Shown piece by piece: positions 21,232-30,018 of a stretch of DNA of 64,000 bases (position 1 is the first letter of the stretch; each line of letters opens with the position of its first letter). The notes beneath the pieces are model-generated. The model had not been told where the DNA came from and made no database searches. It was given only the letters and a program-made list of their open reading frames with translations. Both the position numbers and the translations under genes were made by a program. The stretch is from an uncultured Latescibacterota bacterium. GTDB lineage: Bacteria; Latescibacterota; UBA2968. The stretch covers positions 3,728,522 through 3,792,521 of the forward strand of contig OX638329.1 of assembly GCA_951812755.1 (NCBI GenBank), given 5' to 3'.

Positions 21232-21274
21232 ATAAAACATTTACTTTTGCTAACTTTTTTTGTATATCATTGAT

Positions 21275-21850
21275 ATGAATTATGTTCCGAGTAGAGTTGC
21301 ATGCGAGCGACTGGGATTGCACCCCAACACATTGAGGCGTTGGGCTGATACTGGTCGTATTAAATCTTTTCGCACAAAAACGGGACAGCGCAGATATGAT
21401 GTCGATGACTACTTGCGAGGGTCAATTAGCCCTGCCGTTGTTTGCTACTGCCGAGTCAGTAGCCCAAAACAAAAAGACGACCTTGACAGACAAGTCGCGT
21501 CTATGCAAGAGCAATTCAAAGGAGCGGAAATTGTCAAAGACATTGGCGGTGGACTCAACTACAAGCGAAGAGGATTACTTTCCATATTGGAGCGACTACA
21601 TAGCGGGGAAAAACTCAAAATTGTGGTTGCCCACAAAGACCGTCTTACAAGATTTGGCTTTGAACTCATTGAGTGGATGGCGCAACAAAACGGTGGCGAG
21701 GTCGTGGTTCTCAGCAGAAATGACGAGAGTCCACAAGAAGAACTTGTCCACGATATTTTGTCCATCTTGCATACGTTCTCTCGCAGATTGCACGGACTTA
21801 GACGCTACCATAGTCAGATCAAAAAAGATACGTCTTTATCTGACGGCTGA
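21275..21850 (+). CDS. tnpA: IS607-family serine recombinase TnpA
   Basis: 191 residues from the ATG at 21275 (an in-frame TTG at 21260 is an alternative). An N-terminal MerR-like helix-turn-helix (RVACERLGLHPNTLRRWADT) is followed by the resolvase catalytic domain with the active-site serine in VVCYCRVSSPKQ and DRLTRFGFELIEW. IS607 elements carry this type of small serine recombinase that moves DNA without inverted repeats or target duplications. Its 3' end overlaps tnpB in another frame, as is usual. Confidence 0.9.
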   Translation: MNYVPSRVACERLGLHPNTLRRWADTGRIKSFRTKTGQRRYDVDDYLRGSISPAVVCYCRVSSPKQKDDLDRQVASMQEQFKGAEIVKDIGGGLNYKRRGLLSILERLHSGEKLKIVVAHKDRLTRFGFELIEWMAQQNGGEVVVLSRNDESPQEELVHDILSILHTFSRRLHGLRRYHSQIKKDTSLSDG

Positions 21851-22934
21851 ACAAAGAACGATAGTCAAGCAATGGATAGGCGTTACTCGCTATGTGTATA
21901 ACAAGACTGTTGAGTATTTAAAACAGCCTGATACAGTGGCAAGTTGGAAAGCTATAAAGGGCGACATACTCGGCGACTTGCCAGCATGGGCGAAAGACGC
22001 GCCTTATCAGTCTAAGAGCGTTGCTATACGCGACGCATGTGTTGCAATGAGTGAGGTAAAGAGAAAGAACAAGATTGACAAGCAGAGAAAACACAAATTA
22101 CGCTTCAAGTCGCGCAAGCATCCTAAGCAATCTTGTTATATACCAAAATCTGCTGTAAAGCCAAAAGGCTTGTATCACACAAAATTAGGTAAGATTCATT
22201 ATAGCGAATCATTGCCTGATAATATTCGGGATAGTCGCTTAGTTGTCCATCAAGGACGCTATTATGTGACTATTCCAACACAAGTGCAACGGCGCGTAGG
22301 CGAGAACCAAGCGCGTGTCGTTGCACTTGATCCAGGTGTTCGCTGTTTCCAAGCGTTTTTTTCAGAAAACAGTTGTGGCTTTTTAGGTCGCTTTGCAATC
22401 GGTAAAATACAGCGATTGTGCCAGCACTTAGATGACCTCATTTCTCGCGCAACAAAAGTATTGGCAAAGCGTAGATACCGCATGCTTAGAGCATGTAACC
22501 GTATCCGACACAAGATACGAGACCTCGTTGACGAGATGCACCACAAAGTAGCATGTTTTCTGGTCAAAAACTTTGATGTTATCCTGCTACCCAAATTCGA
22601 GCCGTCTAACATGGTCAAGCGTGGTAAGCGCAAATTAAGGCGCAAGTCTGTACGCCAAATGCTCACGCTTAGTCATTATCGCTTCAGCCAATTTCTCAAG
22701 CACAAAGCGTTTGAGCACGGCAAACTGGTCATAGACGCAAACGAGGCATACACGTCTAAAACAGTGAGTTGGACTGGCGAAGTTATAGACAGTCTCGGCG
22801 GGCGCAAAACAGTAACAGGAAACGACGGACAAACAATGGATAGAGACTTAAACGGCGCACGGGGAATCTTTCTCCGTGCTTTGGGAGATCACCCCCCACT
22901 ACAACAGGCAAGCATTTGTAATGGGCATCGTTAA
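21720..22934 (+). CDS. tnpB: IS607-associated TnpB, RuvC-like RNA-guided nuclease type
   Basis: About 404 residues if the ATG at 21720 is used; the start is uncertain because the homologous region begins near KKIRLYLTAEQR and the frame overlaps tnpA by about 130 bp. The three RuvC acidic residues are visible: VVALDPGVRCF, LLPKFEPSN and MDRDLNGARGIF. TnpB proteins are ancestors of Cas12 and cut DNA guided by an RNA from the element's right end. Oddly, the zinc-ribbon region between the second and third motifs (YTSKTVSWTGEVIDSLGG, then KTVTGNDG) contains no cysteine where four are normal. Confidence 0.85.
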   Translation: MTRVHKKNLSTIFCPSCIRSLADCTDLDATIVRSKKIRLYLTAEQRTIVKQWIGVTRYVYNKTVEYLKQPDTVASWKAIKGDILGDLPAWAKDAPYQSKSVAIRDACVAMSEVKRKNKIDKQRKHKLRFKSRKHPKQSCYIPKSAVKPKGLYHTKLGKIHYSESLPDNIRDSRLVVHQGRYYVTIPTQVQRRVGENQARVVALDPGVRCFQAFFSENSCGFLGRFAIGKIQRLCQHLDDLISRATKVLAKRRYRMLRACNRIRHKIRDLVDEMHHKVACFLVKNFDVILLPKFEPSNMVKRGKRKLRRKSVRQMLTLSHYRFSQFLKHKAFEHGKLVIDANEAYTSKTVSWTGEVIDSLGGRKTVTGNDGQTMDRDLNGARGIFLRALGDHPPLQQASICNGHR

Positions 22935-23748: not shown

Positions 23749-24675
23749 CTAAATCCCATCGACTTCCTCCACCCTATCCAGCAGTGTATATCCATTCTCA
23801 TCTACCGCAATCGAGCGTACTCCTCGATACTGGTCGTAAACCGCATTCATCTCATCCACCGAATCGAAATACCCCACCACATAAGCGGCTCCGATCGTGT
23901 CCCCCGCCGTCACCTTCCGACCGTGTAGTTCCTGGATGAAGCAGACGTAACCCCGCTGGTGACACCATGCCTCGTACACATCCGCCGGATCCAGCGTCAT
24001 CCCCGCCAGCCACACGGATGTGCCATCCGCTTTCCGTTGTTCGTATGCCCGGATGATCCGGTCGGGAATATCGTCCTTTTTTCGCTGATAGAGAAATCCG
24101 TCGTCAGGAGGGAAATCCGTCAGGAACTCTGAAGATTCAATATACCCTTGGTAACTCAGATAAATCCGCGTAAAAGTGTCCCCGCCCTTGTGGTGCAAGT
24201 GACCGGGCATATCGATCCGGTAGAACAGACAGTCCGCGCTATTGACGCAGGTGATCCGTTCGCACGAAAGCATGTACCGCGTATCCGGCAAAAATAGCAA
24301 CGTCTGTTCCCAGCGCGACCCGGCCTGAAAACCTTCAACCACATGCGTGAACGTAAACCATTGCCGGACAGCGAGAAACGCTTCGCCTCTGATAACCTCA
24401 TAGTCCAGCCGCCGTGCCCGCGTACAGATCTGGGGTCCTTCCACGATGTGCTTGGGCAGATTCCCGTCGTAGATCCGATTTGGCTCTGCATCTCCCCACC
24501 CCGGCACGAGCAGGAAGTCCATAATGTGCAGGCCCGAACCCAGATCGGTCGCGCCCGTCCGTTTATCTACAAACGACCTGCTCTTGATCCCACTCACATA
24601 TCCCTCGGTCCGCACAGTCGCACAAAGATGCGGTGTTTCTATCTCGAGTTCTGCTCTGCGTTCGCACCGTATCAT
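23749..24675 (-). CDS. Conserved hypothetical protein next to the thioredoxin-like gene
   Basis: 308 residues from the ATG at 24675, chosen because GGAG lies six bases upstream. No signal peptide. The sequence is mainly beta-strand with many aromatic residues (RTEGYVSGIKSRSFVDKRTG, GLHIMDFLLVPGWGD, SRWEQTLLFLPDTRYMLS, MPGHLHHKGGD, YEAWCHQRGYVCFIQE), suggesting a carbohydrate-associated beta-sandwich fold, but this is inference. It lies 43 bp downstream of the putative selenoprotein on the same strand and may share its transcript. Confidence 0.65.
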   Translation of the reverse strand: MIRCERRAELEIETPHLCATVRTEGYVSGIKSRSFVDKRTGATDLGSGLHIMDFLLVPGWGDAEPNRIYDGNLPKHIVEGPQICTRARRLDYEVIRGEAFLAVRQWFTFTHVVEGFQAGSRWEQTLLFLPDTRYMLSCERITCVNSADCLFYRIDMPGHLHHKGGDTFTRIYLSYQGYIESSEFLTDFPPDDGFLYQRKKDDIPDRIIRAYEQRKADGTSVWLAGMTLDPADVYEAWCHQRGYVCFIQELHGRKVTAGDTIGAAYVVGYFDSVDEMNAVYDQYRGVRSIAVDENGYTLLDRVEEVDGI

Positions 24676-24717
24676 TGTTTCTCCAAAAATGCGACAAAAC
24701 ACATCCCAACTATCAAA

Positions 24718-25998
24718 TCACGCATTAAAATACCGTTCCAGGCTTCCTCGACTCTGGCACGCATGCGGCGCGGTGCGATCCCTCGCCTCCTGCCCGGCAA
24801 TTGTCATCGCAATCCCGATTGGCGCAGGCTCCAAATCTTCCTGTCGTACGTTGTAGTCCGTGCCACCCCATCGAGATCCCACTGCTACAACATCGAACCG
24901 CACAAACCGTTCCGTCCGCAGATCAAAACGGAGATATCCCAGCAGCGAGGCATCCAGCCCTCGTTCCCGGCACGCGCCCTCGTACCAACTCCCCTCCGAA
25001 AACAACTGCGCGGATCCGGAAAGCCTTAAATCCACCCATTCTGGTGTCTTCTCAGTTACCGTCAACGTCATTGCTGCATCTTGGATCGCCTCGGACGGCC
25101 ACGAAGACGTTTCTCCCCGGACATAATCCGCCAGATGATAACGCACCAGCCTTCTGACCAGCCCATCGGGCATGGGAATGACATCGCCCACAGCTGCATC
25201 CGGCGGAACCATAGACAGCACCTCTTCCCGCCTGAACCAGACGTAATCCTGATTGTGCGCCTCTCGCTTCATTCCCGAAGGTCGTGTATCCACCTCCCGG
25301 GGCAGGTCCCGAACGCCCAGGTGTAAAATCAATCCGTCTTCCGGATATTCTGTCCAGCTAAATGTGGGATCCCGATAAGCCAGATCTTCGATTTCCAATG
25401 CCTCGCGCTGGGTCTTGCGGTTCTCCCAGTTCTCCAGTGCCCGTCTCAACATCCACAAAAACCGGTCTGGATCGCTACCCACACCATGGACCGAGGCCTT
25501 GCCGCCCGGAAACAGCCTGTTGCGGCTGCCCAACACTTCCCCCTCTGTCGTCACTACATATAAACCCTGATGGTTCAGCCCGTGATCGATATCCTCCAAC
25601 CTGGCCTGTGCTTCCTCAAAAGAATATCCGTACCTTCCCTGCCAGGATATCAGGCGCAAAAACCGGCCCTCATCATCGGCTTGTCGCTGCAACCGGGAAT
25701 TGTTCACAGCCACCGGGATAAACCGTTCGTTCACAAACTGGATCACGCGCGGATCTGAAAATACGAGCGCACGGCCCGTAACCCCGTTATTTCACGTACA
25801 CCCCAAGGGATGGCCGTTCATCGCCCAGATGAACAGTGGCTTCTCCTCGCGCGCCGCTTTCTGTCGCCCCTCCCAAAGTCCTCCGATCCAGGGAATATCT
25901 GTCCACCGTTCCTGTTGGGGCCGGCAGGCTTCGAACAACGCCGCAAATGTCTCGTCAGTCAACGCCGGAGCAGGATTTGTTATCTCTTTGAGCGTCAT
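24718..25998 (-). CDS. Thioredoxin-like protein with in-frame TGA, candidate selenoprotein
   Basis: ATG at 25998 with AGGAGG seven bases upstream. The frame runs 68 codons to a TGA (25792-25794), then continues without another stop for 357 codons: 426 residues if TGA is decoded. Around it, EKPLFIWAMNGHPLGCT-U-NNGVTGRALVFSDPRV and RFIPVAVNN follow the layout of thioredoxin-like proteins in which a strand (PLFIW) leads to the redox Cys pair and then a (V)FSDPxV helix. The TGA sits in that redox site, two residues after Cys67. No ribosome-binding site serves a restart downstream (the GTG at 25746 has none). The C-terminal 150 residues (LDASLLGYLRFD, RFVRFDVVAVGSRWGGTDYN) have no recognised family. 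A hairpin after the TGA fits a bacterial SECIS. The alternative is a single nonsense mutation. Confidence 0.65.
25762..25780 (-). promoter_or_regulatory. Candidate bacterial SECIS hairpin
   Basis: On the mRNA, bases +12 to +30 after the UGA fold as UACGGGC-CGUGC-GCUCGUA, a 7-bp stem with one G-U pair and a 5-nt loop. The loop has G and U at positions 2 and 3, at +20 and +21 from the UGA. The accepted bSECIS pattern asks for a G in the first two loop bases, a loop of 3-14 nt and a loop 16-37 nt after the UGA; all are met. Confidence 0.5.
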
Positions 25999-26159
25999 AA
26001 CACACCTCCGTGTTTCTTCGGGTGAAAATTGATCGCGGTTTGAAAGAATAAGTCAACAATCGTTCAATCCCTCCAACCCGAGGTGCCTGGAGAAAAAACA
26101 AGGGATTGACAAAGGGACTCCTATCCGTAAATTCGCAAATATAATACATAAAATCAAGG

Positions 26160-26188: not shown

Positions 26189-26282
26189 AAACTTGATTTG
26201 TCTATGTTTGTAATCTAAATTTGTTTTATTCCGTCTGCTATTTGGCCTGAAGGTAGCCCGCTTGTTAGCACAAGGAGTATGG

Positions 26283-27977
26283 ATGAAACTCTGTACAGGA
26301 ATCGCTCTATTCTTCTGGGTATTCGATGTTTGGTGCCAGGAGGTACAATTTGTGGAGGTATCTGTCCAGGCGGGCATTGACTTCATCCACGTCAACGGAG
26401 CCAGTGGCAGGAAGTACGAAGTAGAGACAATGGGCCCTGGCTGTGGGCTATTCGATTACGACGGCGACGGAGATCTGGACATCTACCTGATCAATGGCGC
26501 ACCCCTGCCGGGCTATCAGACAACGGTGATACCGACCAACCGCCTTTACAGAAACGATGGCGAGTGGCGGTTTACGGATGTGACGGCAGTATCAGCGACG
26601 GGCGATCCGAGTTACGGCCTGGGATGTGCGGTGGGAGATTACAATAACGATGGGGACCTGGATCTTTACGTGACCAACTTCGGTTCCAATGTGCTCTATC
26701 GCAATGGAGGAAACGGAACCTTTGCAGATGTGACCACCCGGGCCGGAGTGGGAGATGCGCGCTGGGGTAGTACTGCGATGTTCCTCGACTATGACCGGGA
26801 TGGAGACCTGGATCTCTATCTGGTCAACTACATCGATTGTACTCTAAAAAGCGATAGGGACTGCAGAATACCCGGCACATCCACGCTGGGCTATTGTCAC
26901 CCGGATATCTATCCTGGAGTACCGGACGTACTCTACCGGAACGAAGGAGATGGAACATTTACAGATGTAACCCGCGAATCCGGCATCTACCGACCGGGAG
27001 CGAGAGGACTGGGCGTGGTGGGCACCGACTACGACAACGACGGAGATCTGGACATCTATGTGGCCAACGATTCGATGGAGAACTACCTCTTTGCCAATCT
27101 GGGCGACGGAACATTTGAGGAAATCGCCCTGCTATCCGGCGTGTCATTCAACGAGATGGGCCACGCCGAAGCGGGAATGGGGGTGGACATTGCAGACGTA
27201 GATGGGAACGGCTATTCGGATATCCTGATCGGGCACCTATCAACGGAGACAAATACCCTCTACCTGAACAACGGGGATGGAACATTTACGGATGCGACCA
27301 AGACAGCGGGCCTTGCCGCGACACTGAATGACCTGACATTCGGACTGGTCTTCTTAGACGCGGACAACGATGGAGATGCCGATGCCTTTGCCGCGAACGG
27401 GCATGTCCTGGATAACATCGAGCTTATCTCCGACGAGTCTCCCTACAAACAGCGCAATAAGCTCTTCGAAAATACGGGCAATGGTCAATTCGCGGATGCT
27501 TCGGCACGCTTCGGCCCCGGCTTGAGCATTCTCAAATCGAGCCGTGGAACGGCTGCGGGGGATATCGACAACGACGGCGATATCGATCTGCTGGTGGCCA
27601 ATGTCGCCGACCGGCCGGATCTGCTGAGGAATGAAGGAGGCAACTGGAACAACTGGCTGATGGTGAGACTAGTTGGAGGAGAAAGTGTTTCGGAAATAAA
27701 GAAAAACTCGAAACTTTCCAATCGGGACGGAATTGGGACACGGGTAACCGTGATATCCGGCGATCTGCGGCAGGTAAAAGAAGTACACAGCGCAGCCAGC
27801 TACCAATCGGCTAATGACCTGAGGTTGCACTTTGGATTGGGAAATTGGGAACAGATAGACCTCGTAGAGGTCCAATGGCCATCGGGAAGAGTGGATCGAA
27901 TCACAGAAACATCTTTCAACAAAATACTGGTGATCAAAGAAGGGGAAACCATGCCTGTACCGAGAACGCGGGATTAG
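26283..27977 (+). CDS. CRTAC1-family secreted protein (FG-GAP repeats plus ASPIC/UnbV)
   Basis: 564 residues from the ATG at 26283, preceded by AAGGAG. Signal peptide 1-20 (ends DVWC-QEV). Some eight FG-GAP/VCBS-type calcium loops (DYDGDGDLDIYLINGA, DYNNDGDLDLYVTNFG, DIDNDGDIDLLVANV) build a beta-propeller, and the C-terminus carries the ASPIC/UnbV motif (LVEVQWPSGRVDRI). Such proteins are common in marine and sponge-associated uncultured bacteria; they probably bind carbohydrate or protein outside the cell. It is the only plus-strand gene in the right-hand 40 kb and converges with the membrane protein ending at 27997. Confidence 0.9.
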   Translation: MKLCTGIALFFWVFDVWCQEVQFVEVSVQAGIDFIHVNGASGRKYEVETMGPGCGLFDYDGDGDLDIYLINGAPLPGYQTTVIPTNRLYRNDGEWRFTDVTAVSATGDPSYGLGCAVGDYNNDGDLDLYVTNFGSNVLYRNGGNGTFADVTTRAGVGDARWGSTAMFLDYDRDGDLDLYLVNYIDCTLKSDRDCRIPGTSTLGYCHPDIYPGVPDVLYRNEGDGTFTDVTRESGIYRPGARGLGVVGTDYDNDGDLDIYVANDSMENYLFANLGDGTFEEIALLSGVSFNEMGHAEAGMGVDIADVDGNGYSDILIGHLSTETNTLYLNNGDGTFTDATKTAGLAATLNDLTFGLVFLDADNDGDADAFAANGHVLDNIELISDESPYKQRNKLFENTGNGQFADASARFGPGLSILKSSRGTAAGDIDNDGDIDLLVANVADRPDLLRNEGGNWNNWLMVRLVGGESVSEIKKNSKLSNRDGIGTRVTVISGDLRQVKEVHSAASYQSANDLRLHFGLGNWEQIDLVEVQWPSGRVDRITETSFNKILVIKEGETMPVPRTRD

Positions 27978-27996: not shown

Positions 27997-30018
27997 CTAA
28001 AGCCGGTGGACCATGTGGCCCTGCTCGGGAAACCAGATCAGGTCGATGAAAAGCGATAACACGACACCCATGACATAGCCAACGAGCAGGCCCAGAAATA
28101 GGGGCCGGGATTTCTGATACGAGGATGCTCCCCCTACCTTTACGGTAATCCACTTGATCAACCAGGCTACGAGAATCGTCAGACTCGTCCGTCGGGCCAG
28201 AAAGGAGCCTGAAATGGCGAGGCCCGCCGGATGAAGCGGCCACCAGGGGAACCGACGCCTGAGCAGGAAGAGCAACGCGGTAGCCAGCGCGCCGAGCACA
28301 AAAAAGGCGAACTCGTCAGGATGTTCTATGAAGATCGGTGCATCGGTATCCTGCATCAGAAAGGATCTGACGGATTTTGCGGTGCGATCGTAGTGTGGAT
28401 TGCCGGATCTGATGGCCACCCAACCTGTAAAGTTCAGTGCTCCGTGTCGATAACCCAGATAAAGTGTCATCAACACGCATGTGACCACACTCGTCACAAA
28501 AGCCAGAAAAACCGCGCCTGTGAGCTGTCGCCGGCTTTCCACTTGCACACCCTCAGCCACCCGTCCGGCCTGGCTGAGAGCGGGTAAGAAGGATCCCTTG
28601 AAATTGGACAACAGGACGCCCGAGGTCCGTGCAGCTACCCGGGTGCTCGCGTGGATGGATTCTCCATCCAGAAAGGGGCTTACCAGGCCCCATCCTCCCC
28701 AAACGGGGGCGTTGACATAAGGCAACCCCGTATCGGACAGGATTCTCGCCAATCCCAAATAGGTGAAGATCGCTCCGAAGATCAGAAGTACCGCCTGAAA
28801 AGGATCGAATCCGATCCGAATCAGCCAGACCCAGATGTAGATCAGGCTGATAGCTAACCCTGCAACAGCCGTGCGGTAGGAGAGCGGTTCGTCCCTATCG
28901 TCAACCGGGGCCTGGGAGTCAAGTGCCTTCCAAAACACATCCCGGATCTGCGAACGCGCTGCCCAGATGGTAGAAAGCACCAGAAAGAAGAAGGCTCCCT
29001 TCGTCTGCCAGAAGCAGACCCCCGAGTAGTAATAGGGCGAAGTAGCCACAAATCCGATCCGGTTGAGCAGGCCCCCTTCGAGGATAAAGAGCAGATCGAA
29101 AAACCAGATACTGAACAGAACTTCCACAGTTGCGAAATAGGAAAAACAGATGGTAAAAATATCGAGGATGCCGTAGATAGGCGGAAAATTTCGACCAATC
29201 CAGATCCATCGCCCCCCCTGGTGTGCCGCACTGCCCTGCGCGTAGATAGGAAATTGGGGAAAGGTGGGGATGAAGTAGTTGACACAGTTCCAGGCGATCA
29301 TCCCGAAGACGATCCAGAAGCCAATCCAGAAGAGGATATTCCGCGTGAACGCCGGGAGAAATCCCTTTCCATCTCCCGGGTGGGAGGCCATTTCGACCAG
29401 CGGAGCCATAGCCGGAAAGGCCACTTTTTCGTAGTGTATCCACTGTTTGCGGAAGATGGTGGTGACGCAGGCATAGAGGACAAAAGCGGCAACGGTCAAT
29501 CCGCCCCACCAGAACAGGGGTAATAGCCACTTTCCCCACGGCAATTGCGCGCCCCTGGGTAGTCCCTCCCAGAACCAGGTCACCGCTTGCTCTTCGTTTC
29601 CGGGAAACAGCCACTCTGCAATATAGGGGTGCAGGTAATTGGCCCATTCGTTTTCACCCGTGGCAAAGTAGTGCGGCGCGCCCATGTAGGAAATAAGGTA
29701 GCCGGAATACCCGTAGAACAGAACCGCTGCTCCGACTATTCCCATCGCCAGAATCGTATGCCATTCCGAGGGCGACAGTGCCTGCCTCGTTCTACGCGCA
29801 ACAACTGCTCCGGCCAGGATCATCAGAACAAAGCCGATCAGTACGACCATTGGCACATGGCTATAAGCCATCATTGGGCCGCGGGGAAGCAGGTATTTCA
29901 CATAGATAGCCAGCACATCGATCCCGACGACCAGACCGAGGCCGAGAAGCACGGCGCGCGTCATGGGTCTGGTTCTTTCGGGAGAATCAGGTTGCCCGAG
30001 AGGCTCTTGCATGGTCAT
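27997..30018 (-). CDS. Large polytopic membrane protein, DUF6785/DUF6784 type
   Basis: 673 residues with about 14 hydrophobic spans, starting AVLLGLGLVVGIDVLAIYVK and ending in a cluster that includes PLFLGLLVGYVMGVVLSLFI. Conserved-looking loops include YLHPYIAEWLFP and DLLFILEGGLLNRIGF. Proteins of this kind occur in Planctomycetota and related uncultured groups near carbohydrate genes; a transport role is likely but not established, and the fold reminds of oligopeptide transporters. It stands at the downstream end of the minus-strand group and is 60 bp from the amidohydrolase upstream. Confidence 0.7.
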   Translation of the reverse strand: MTMQEPLGQPDSPERTRPMTRAVLLGLGLVVGIDVLAIYVKYLLPRGPMMAYSHVPMVVLIGFVLMILAGAVVARRTRQALSPSEWHTILAMGIVGAAVLFYGYSGYLISYMGAPHYFATGENEWANYLHPYIAEWLFPGNEEQAVTWFWEGLPRGAQLPWGKWLLPLFWWGGLTVAAFVLYACVTTIFRKQWIHYEKVAFPAMAPLVEMASHPGDGKGFLPAFTRNILFWIGFWIVFGMIAWNCVNYFIPTFPQFPIYAQGSAAHQGGRWIWIGRNFPPIYGILDIFTICFSYFATVEVLFSIWFFDLLFILEGGLLNRIGFVATSPYYYSGVCFWQTKGAFFFLVLSTIWAARSQIRDVFWKALDSQAPVDDRDEPLSYRTAVAGLAISLIYIWVWLIRIGFDPFQAVLLIFGAIFTYLGLARILSDTGLPYVNAPVWGGWGLVSPFLDGESIHASTRVAARTSGVLLSNFKGSFLPALSQAGRVAEGVQVESRRQLTGAVFLAFVTSVVTCVLMTLYLGYRHGALNFTGWVAIRSGNPHYDRTAKSVRSFLMQDTDAPIFIEHPDEFAFFVLGALATALLFLLRRRFPWWPLHPAGLAISGSFLARRTSLTILVAWLIKWITVKVGGASSYQKSRPLFLGLLVGYVMGVVLSLFIDLIWFPEQGHMVHRL

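Follow-up and report, generated by a model that had tools for sequence, protein, structure and literature searches.

A selenoprotein family with predicted selenocysteine at a thioredoxin nucleophile position and apparently no cysteine form

The gene at positions 24718..25998 on the minus strand of the window (the whole 64,000-nucleotide stretch of Latescibacterota DNA analysed here) very probably encodes a genuine selenoprotein with selenocysteine (Sec) at the thioredoxin nucleophile position, although we have no direct evidence of selenium or of activity. That UGA69 is read as Sec under the guidance of a SECIS element is strongly supported, as an inference from sequence. The protein is predicted to combine two domains, a DsbH-type thioredoxin carrying Sec at the N-terminal nucleophile site and a family-specific C-terminal domain, an architecture supported by modelling. 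Within the bounds of the libraries and phyla searched, its family appears to be new among selenoproteins, and the apparent absence of a cysteine (Cys) form makes it unusual.

The gene and the conservation of its TGA codon

All features described here lie on the minus strand. The reading frame opens at an ATG (25998) placed 6 nt after a Shine-Dalgarno-like GGAGG (26005..26009) and ends at a terminal TGA (24718-24720), giving 426 residues including Sec69. The Sec codon (TGA, 25792..25794) is placed both by the TGA column in homologues and by hhalign against the first Cys of the CxxC motif in DUF255/DsbH thioredoxins. It is the single in-frame interruption, with 68 codons before and 357 after, as the preliminary description had stated. 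The automatic call within the window recovers a 342-aa product from a GTG at 25746, and across the family standard annotation yields truncated ORFs only.

Close behind the gene lies an ORF of 317 aa and unknown function (23749..24702), which is probably outside the selenoprotein system since it is retained in the nearest relatives only. No neighbour proved to be conserved when flanking ORFs were compared across family loci; sulfatases and genes resembling oxidoreductases show weak recurrence. The neighbourhood being uninformative, a conserved operon was dropped as a clue to function. Elsewhere in the window, an IS607-like resolvase ORF overlapping a TnpB-like ORF was recognized by eye 2 kb from the gene (21260-22934), and an FG-GAP/ASPIC-UnbV protein (26262-27977) and a DUF6785/DUF6784 protein (27997-30018) are encoded beyond it.

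In a codon alignment with 22 homologues (31-95% identity to the window protein), the residue-69 column is TGA in every one. When relatives were first searched, 18 of 41 genomes proved to carry the gene, and every copy has TGA in the matched frame; a second TGA listed in one copy proved to be its own terminal stop. An independent pattern scan of 84,980 species genomes, whose patterns exclude residue 69, returned twelve relatives, the distant ones from Verrucomicrobiales and Kiritimatiellia likewise reading GHPxxC-V-U-NNG. A wider search brought the number of copies readable around the Sec site to 72 (L017 and L103 being one gene), five of them remote relatives matching over the thioredoxin part only (L137-L141). 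All 72 have TGA at the Sec site, down to about 30% identity, and four further fragments agree. The family thus ranges over Latescibacterota (carried by 18 of 64 genomes), Verrucomicrobiales (about a fifth of the sample, 74 of 387 genomes) and Kiritimatiellia, and a plasmid search gave no match.

No Cys-coded version was found in the genomes searched, the in-depth search being limited to Latescibacterota and Verrucomicrobiota and, in large samples, to the four or five top-scoring candidates in each genome. Even in the 269 Verrucomicrobiales genomes without detected selA, no Cys-coded two-domain protein was reported among the best four candidates per genome. Because only these four were scored, the absence sets a limit and is not proof. 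The five candidates for a Cys form (L133-L136 and L079) were rejected: they are DUF255 proteins or thioredoxin-like proteins with an ordinary CxxC or a single Cys, and their weak similarity is confined to the thioredoxin part; this assessment leaves out three similar weak matches (G881, G884 and G932). Most matches to the C-terminal part alone fall at contig ends or frame breaks; one has no thioredoxin part within reach (L153) and another has its upstream sequence masked by N (L083). Whether the family is Sec-obligate, a Cys version being nonexistent because the chemistry needs selenium, we can put forward only tentatively, with slightly more doubt than belief.

The sequence beyond the TGA is under purifying selection. 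In seven of eight same-genus comparisons dN/dS after the TGA is 0.10-0.13, and in the closest pair (L020) 0.19; values before the TGA are similar, with dS mostly 0.2-0.4. Two checks proposed at the outset, for Cys or TGA at residue 69 in homologues and for constraint on the downstream codons, therefore both came out in favor of the Sec reading: TGA in all copies read with no Cys, and dN/dS of about 0.1.

A SECIS-like hairpin and the Sec machinery

A SECIS-like hairpin of bacterial type follows the TGA (25762..25780), and its stem shows compensatory changes among homologues. The preliminary description of this element holds: seven pairs (25780-25774 with 25768-25762) close a 5-nt loop, CGUGC (25773-25769), lying 19-23 nt past the TGA. 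The hairpin meets the bacterial SECIS criterion of a loop 16-37 nt after the TGA with G among the first two loop bases. Across 20 distinct sequences, 97.5% of cells in the stem (nt 16-21 with 27-32, counting the TGA as 1-3) are paired, and five of the six pairs have changed at both bases. Covariation in the stem scores 0.68; the value after shuffling is 0.32 (0 of 500), and sliding the register gives no more than 0.16. In 47 copies the loop reads CGUG with A, C or U as its last base, and in 11 it reads AGGUU. Of the 72 copies, 60 form five or more of the six pairs in the canonical register, against 29.2 ± 3.5 (maximum 42 in 500) under a null of synonymous codon resampling, which preserves the protein and ignores relatedness among sequences. 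Since the hairpin exceeds this null, protein constraint does not explain it. About 12 of the 72 copies lack a hairpin in the canonical register, several of them having one nearby, and an Rfam scan around the TGA returned nothing. The proposed search for a SECIS element thus found a SECIS-like structure downstream of the TGA, with compensatory changes in homologues.

The window genome, a single contig of 6.5 Mb, contains the Sec machinery that the preliminary description had asked for: selA (579.9 bits) with selB (385 bits) adjoining it, selD (365 bits, with one TGA of its own) and, beside selD, a tRNA-Sec with anticodon TCA (73.3 bits). Near selD and tRNA-Sec, and adjoining selD, we also observed a TlpA-like frame with an in-frame TGA (WASW-U-GC; L053), which resembles the known UGC-containing TlpA family. 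Carriage of the gene goes together with selA, which is present in all 18 Latescibacterota carriers and in both genomes behind the distant loci. Among the 387 Verrucomicrobiales genomes, sampled from the order of G064, selA was detected in 69 of 74 carriers vs 49 of 313 non-carriers (Fisher p about 1e-37). The five carriers without detected selA are possibly incomplete assemblies. Four close relatives lack the gene (G002, G005, G008 and G011), three of these four having selA; in G008, a single contig, the absence is probably real.

From one genome alone, a single TGA could pass for a nonsense mutation or a sequencing error in an ordinary gene, but its presence in all 72 homologues, in two phyla and in independent assemblies, rules out a pseudogene or assembly error, and with dN/dS of about 0.1 past the TGA we attach practically no weight to this explanation. 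Sec insertion, preferred at the outset over one nonsense mutation, is thus strongly supported by the conserved TGA, the machinery, the covarying hairpin and selection. It remains conceivable, if very improbable, that the TGA is recoded otherwise, as Trp, by read-through, or as a regulatory stop, the GTG at 25746 then starting a separate product. The codon alone cannot separate read-through from Sec, and the 342-aa automatic ORF fits such a downstream product; against this, the hairpin covaries at SECIS distance, the gene is tied to selA and the window genome has tRNA-Sec. General reassignment is excluded because TGA is also the terminal stop of the window gene and of many homologues. In the Sec reading that we prefer, SelB and tRNA-Sec would decode UGA69 as Sec, guided by the hairpin whose loop begins 19 nt downstream.

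Fold, active site and variation across the family

Folded separately with AlphaFold2, residues 16-196 (25411..25953) give a predicted thioredoxin-fold domain of DsbH/AGR/ERp18 type (pLDDT 80.5, pTM 0.83). Foldseek matches of this model are 3f9u, Thioredox_DsbH 7tkv, DsbH 2ju5, AGR2/AGR3 and ERp18, at modest E-values (best 3.9e-4) and TM-scores around 0.5. The thioredoxin-like identity first assigned to the protein is thus backed by the structure model and its matches, and a DsbH/AGR-type thioredoxin fold for the first 195 residues is supported, as a model. A Foldseek search with the full-length model gave no significant match and a PDB sequence search nothing meaningful. When aligned to a DUF255 protein by hhalign, Sec69 is paired with the first Cys of CxxC, and Gly72 with the second; the window protein has no CxxC active site and reads UxxG instead. 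An invariant Gln144-Gly145 precedes the third strand, where thioredoxins have a cis-Pro (judged from the sequence and the modelled strands). As Gln-Gly replaces this proline, ordinary thioredoxin chemistry is not assured. The C-terminal domain (residues 205-426, 24721..25386), conserved in the family and mainly antiparallel beta in the model, has no match in Pfam, NCBIfam or PDB and contains invariant W, R, D and G, with no invariant Cys, in the 22-member alignment. Signal-peptide-like starts were read by eye in several Verrucomicrobiota members and in none from Latescibacterota.

In the window protein, Cys67 (TGT, 25798..25800) is a candidate resolving Cys within a C-x-U pair. The accompanying Cys varies across the family: it lies at -2 in 58 of 72 copies, at -1 in nine and at neither position in five; in three of these five it is found at -4 and in a fourth at -3, and the last has no Cys nearby on the upstream side. 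A further subgroup reads UGAC, that is UxxC, with Cys at +3. The C-x-U center initially proposed thus holds for most members, including the window protein, but does not define the family, the Cys shifting to -1, -3, -4 or +3. The Sec nucleophile is constant across two phyla, with a resolving Cys, whose role is inferred, shifted or lost. In a tree of the 66 longer rows, Latescibacterota copies fall on one side of a branch (99/87), and those of Verrucomicrobiota and Kiritimatiellia form several deep groups; one genome (G065) has five family matches.

Two outlying groups were also observed. One, with the pattern LFGxxDEE[FY]C-U-ANGxLARxVTFSD, comprises L081 (1500-1680, genome G306) and L137-L139; it is a second group of Sec proteins related via the thioredoxin part only. 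The C-terminal part of this group differs, its N-terminal part gives a weak match to HEAT, and no NCBIfam model matched. The other, L140 and L141, is remote and reads IDLPxDDKRC-U-VFAGAxRE; its loop, which keeps the same register, is CGUGA.

Most likely, the selenolate would attack an oxidised substrate, whose identity is unknown, and the intermediate might then be resolved by a nearby Cys (here Cys67) or by an external thiol; both steps are inferred. We favor such thiol-exchange chemistry with moderate confidence, neither activity nor substrate having been shown. Alternatively, Sec could be a ligand for a metal or metalloid, or form a peroxidase center, with the C-terminal domain binding the substrate. 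The unfixed accompanying Cys (five members have none at -1 or -2), the lack of a cis-proline and the conservation of a C-terminal domain with invariant W, R, D and G and no invariant Cys all leave room for such a role. However, in most members a Cys lies no more than four residues from Sec, which is what a Se-S intermediate would lead one to expect, and the fold matches are thiol-disulfide proteins, so that we consider chemistry other than thiol exchange unlikely, though by no means dismissed.

Relation to known selenoproteins

Neither Pfam nor NCBIfam offers a model for the family, none matching above its cut-off. The inventory in a 2026 review (PMC13188914) counts 119 families or subfamilies of prokaryotic selenoproteins, none of which fits by domain and motif. 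The families of Haft and Tolstoy 2025, insofar as that review gives them with NCBIfam accessions, were unmatched by our scans. The preliminary description of the gene as undescribed therefore stands for Pfam, NCBIfam and this inventory, but it is bounded by the libraries, literature and phyla covered.

Methods for discovering bacterial selenoproteins depend on Cys-containing homologues. According to the deep-Sep paper, all known selenoproteins seem to possess Cys homologues, and proteins without them may be filtered out (PMC12013277). Apparently lacking a Cys form, the present family would escape such discovery. It offers a natural test of why proteins retain Sec, since the nucleophile stays Sec and the resolving partner varies.

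Several known proteins share features with the family. Motifs of TsoC (NF045708, NEPxGxxU) and TsoX (NF045809, HSGNPxU) are superficially alike in spelling, but their HMMs matched none of the 22 aligned members at E<=1. The CxU motif recurs in Sec.1, a bacterial thioredoxin-like selenoprotein assigned to PF13192 (PMC13188914, 2026), yet PF13192 was unmatched in every member scanned. SELENOF (Sep15) also has a C-x-U redox pair in a thioredoxin-like domain (PMC9304195); it is however eukaryotic, shows no sequence or fold match here, and the Cys at -2 is not universal in our family. Like the window protein, NF041383 (Trx_VPGUxxT_two, thioredoxin-like (seleno)protein, hypothetical protein OS_HP5) is a Sec-containing thioredoxin-like protein. 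It gives a weak local match to the family around Sec in the thioredoxin domain (best E 6.7e-4), but scores 16.7 bits against a cut-off of 275 for the window protein, does not reach the C-terminal domain and differs in motif, VPGUxxT as opposed to UNNG. PF03190 gave no match with the window protein, and the best family member (E 0.005) remained under the gathering cut-off. With DUF255/Thioredox_DsbH (PF03190) and Thioredoxin_7 (PF13899), the family shares the fold and the pattern KPxF...FSDPxVIxxxNxxFIPV (hhalign probability 95), but it scores far under their gathering cut-offs, has UxxG in place of CxxC and joins the thioredoxin domain to a different C-terminal partner.
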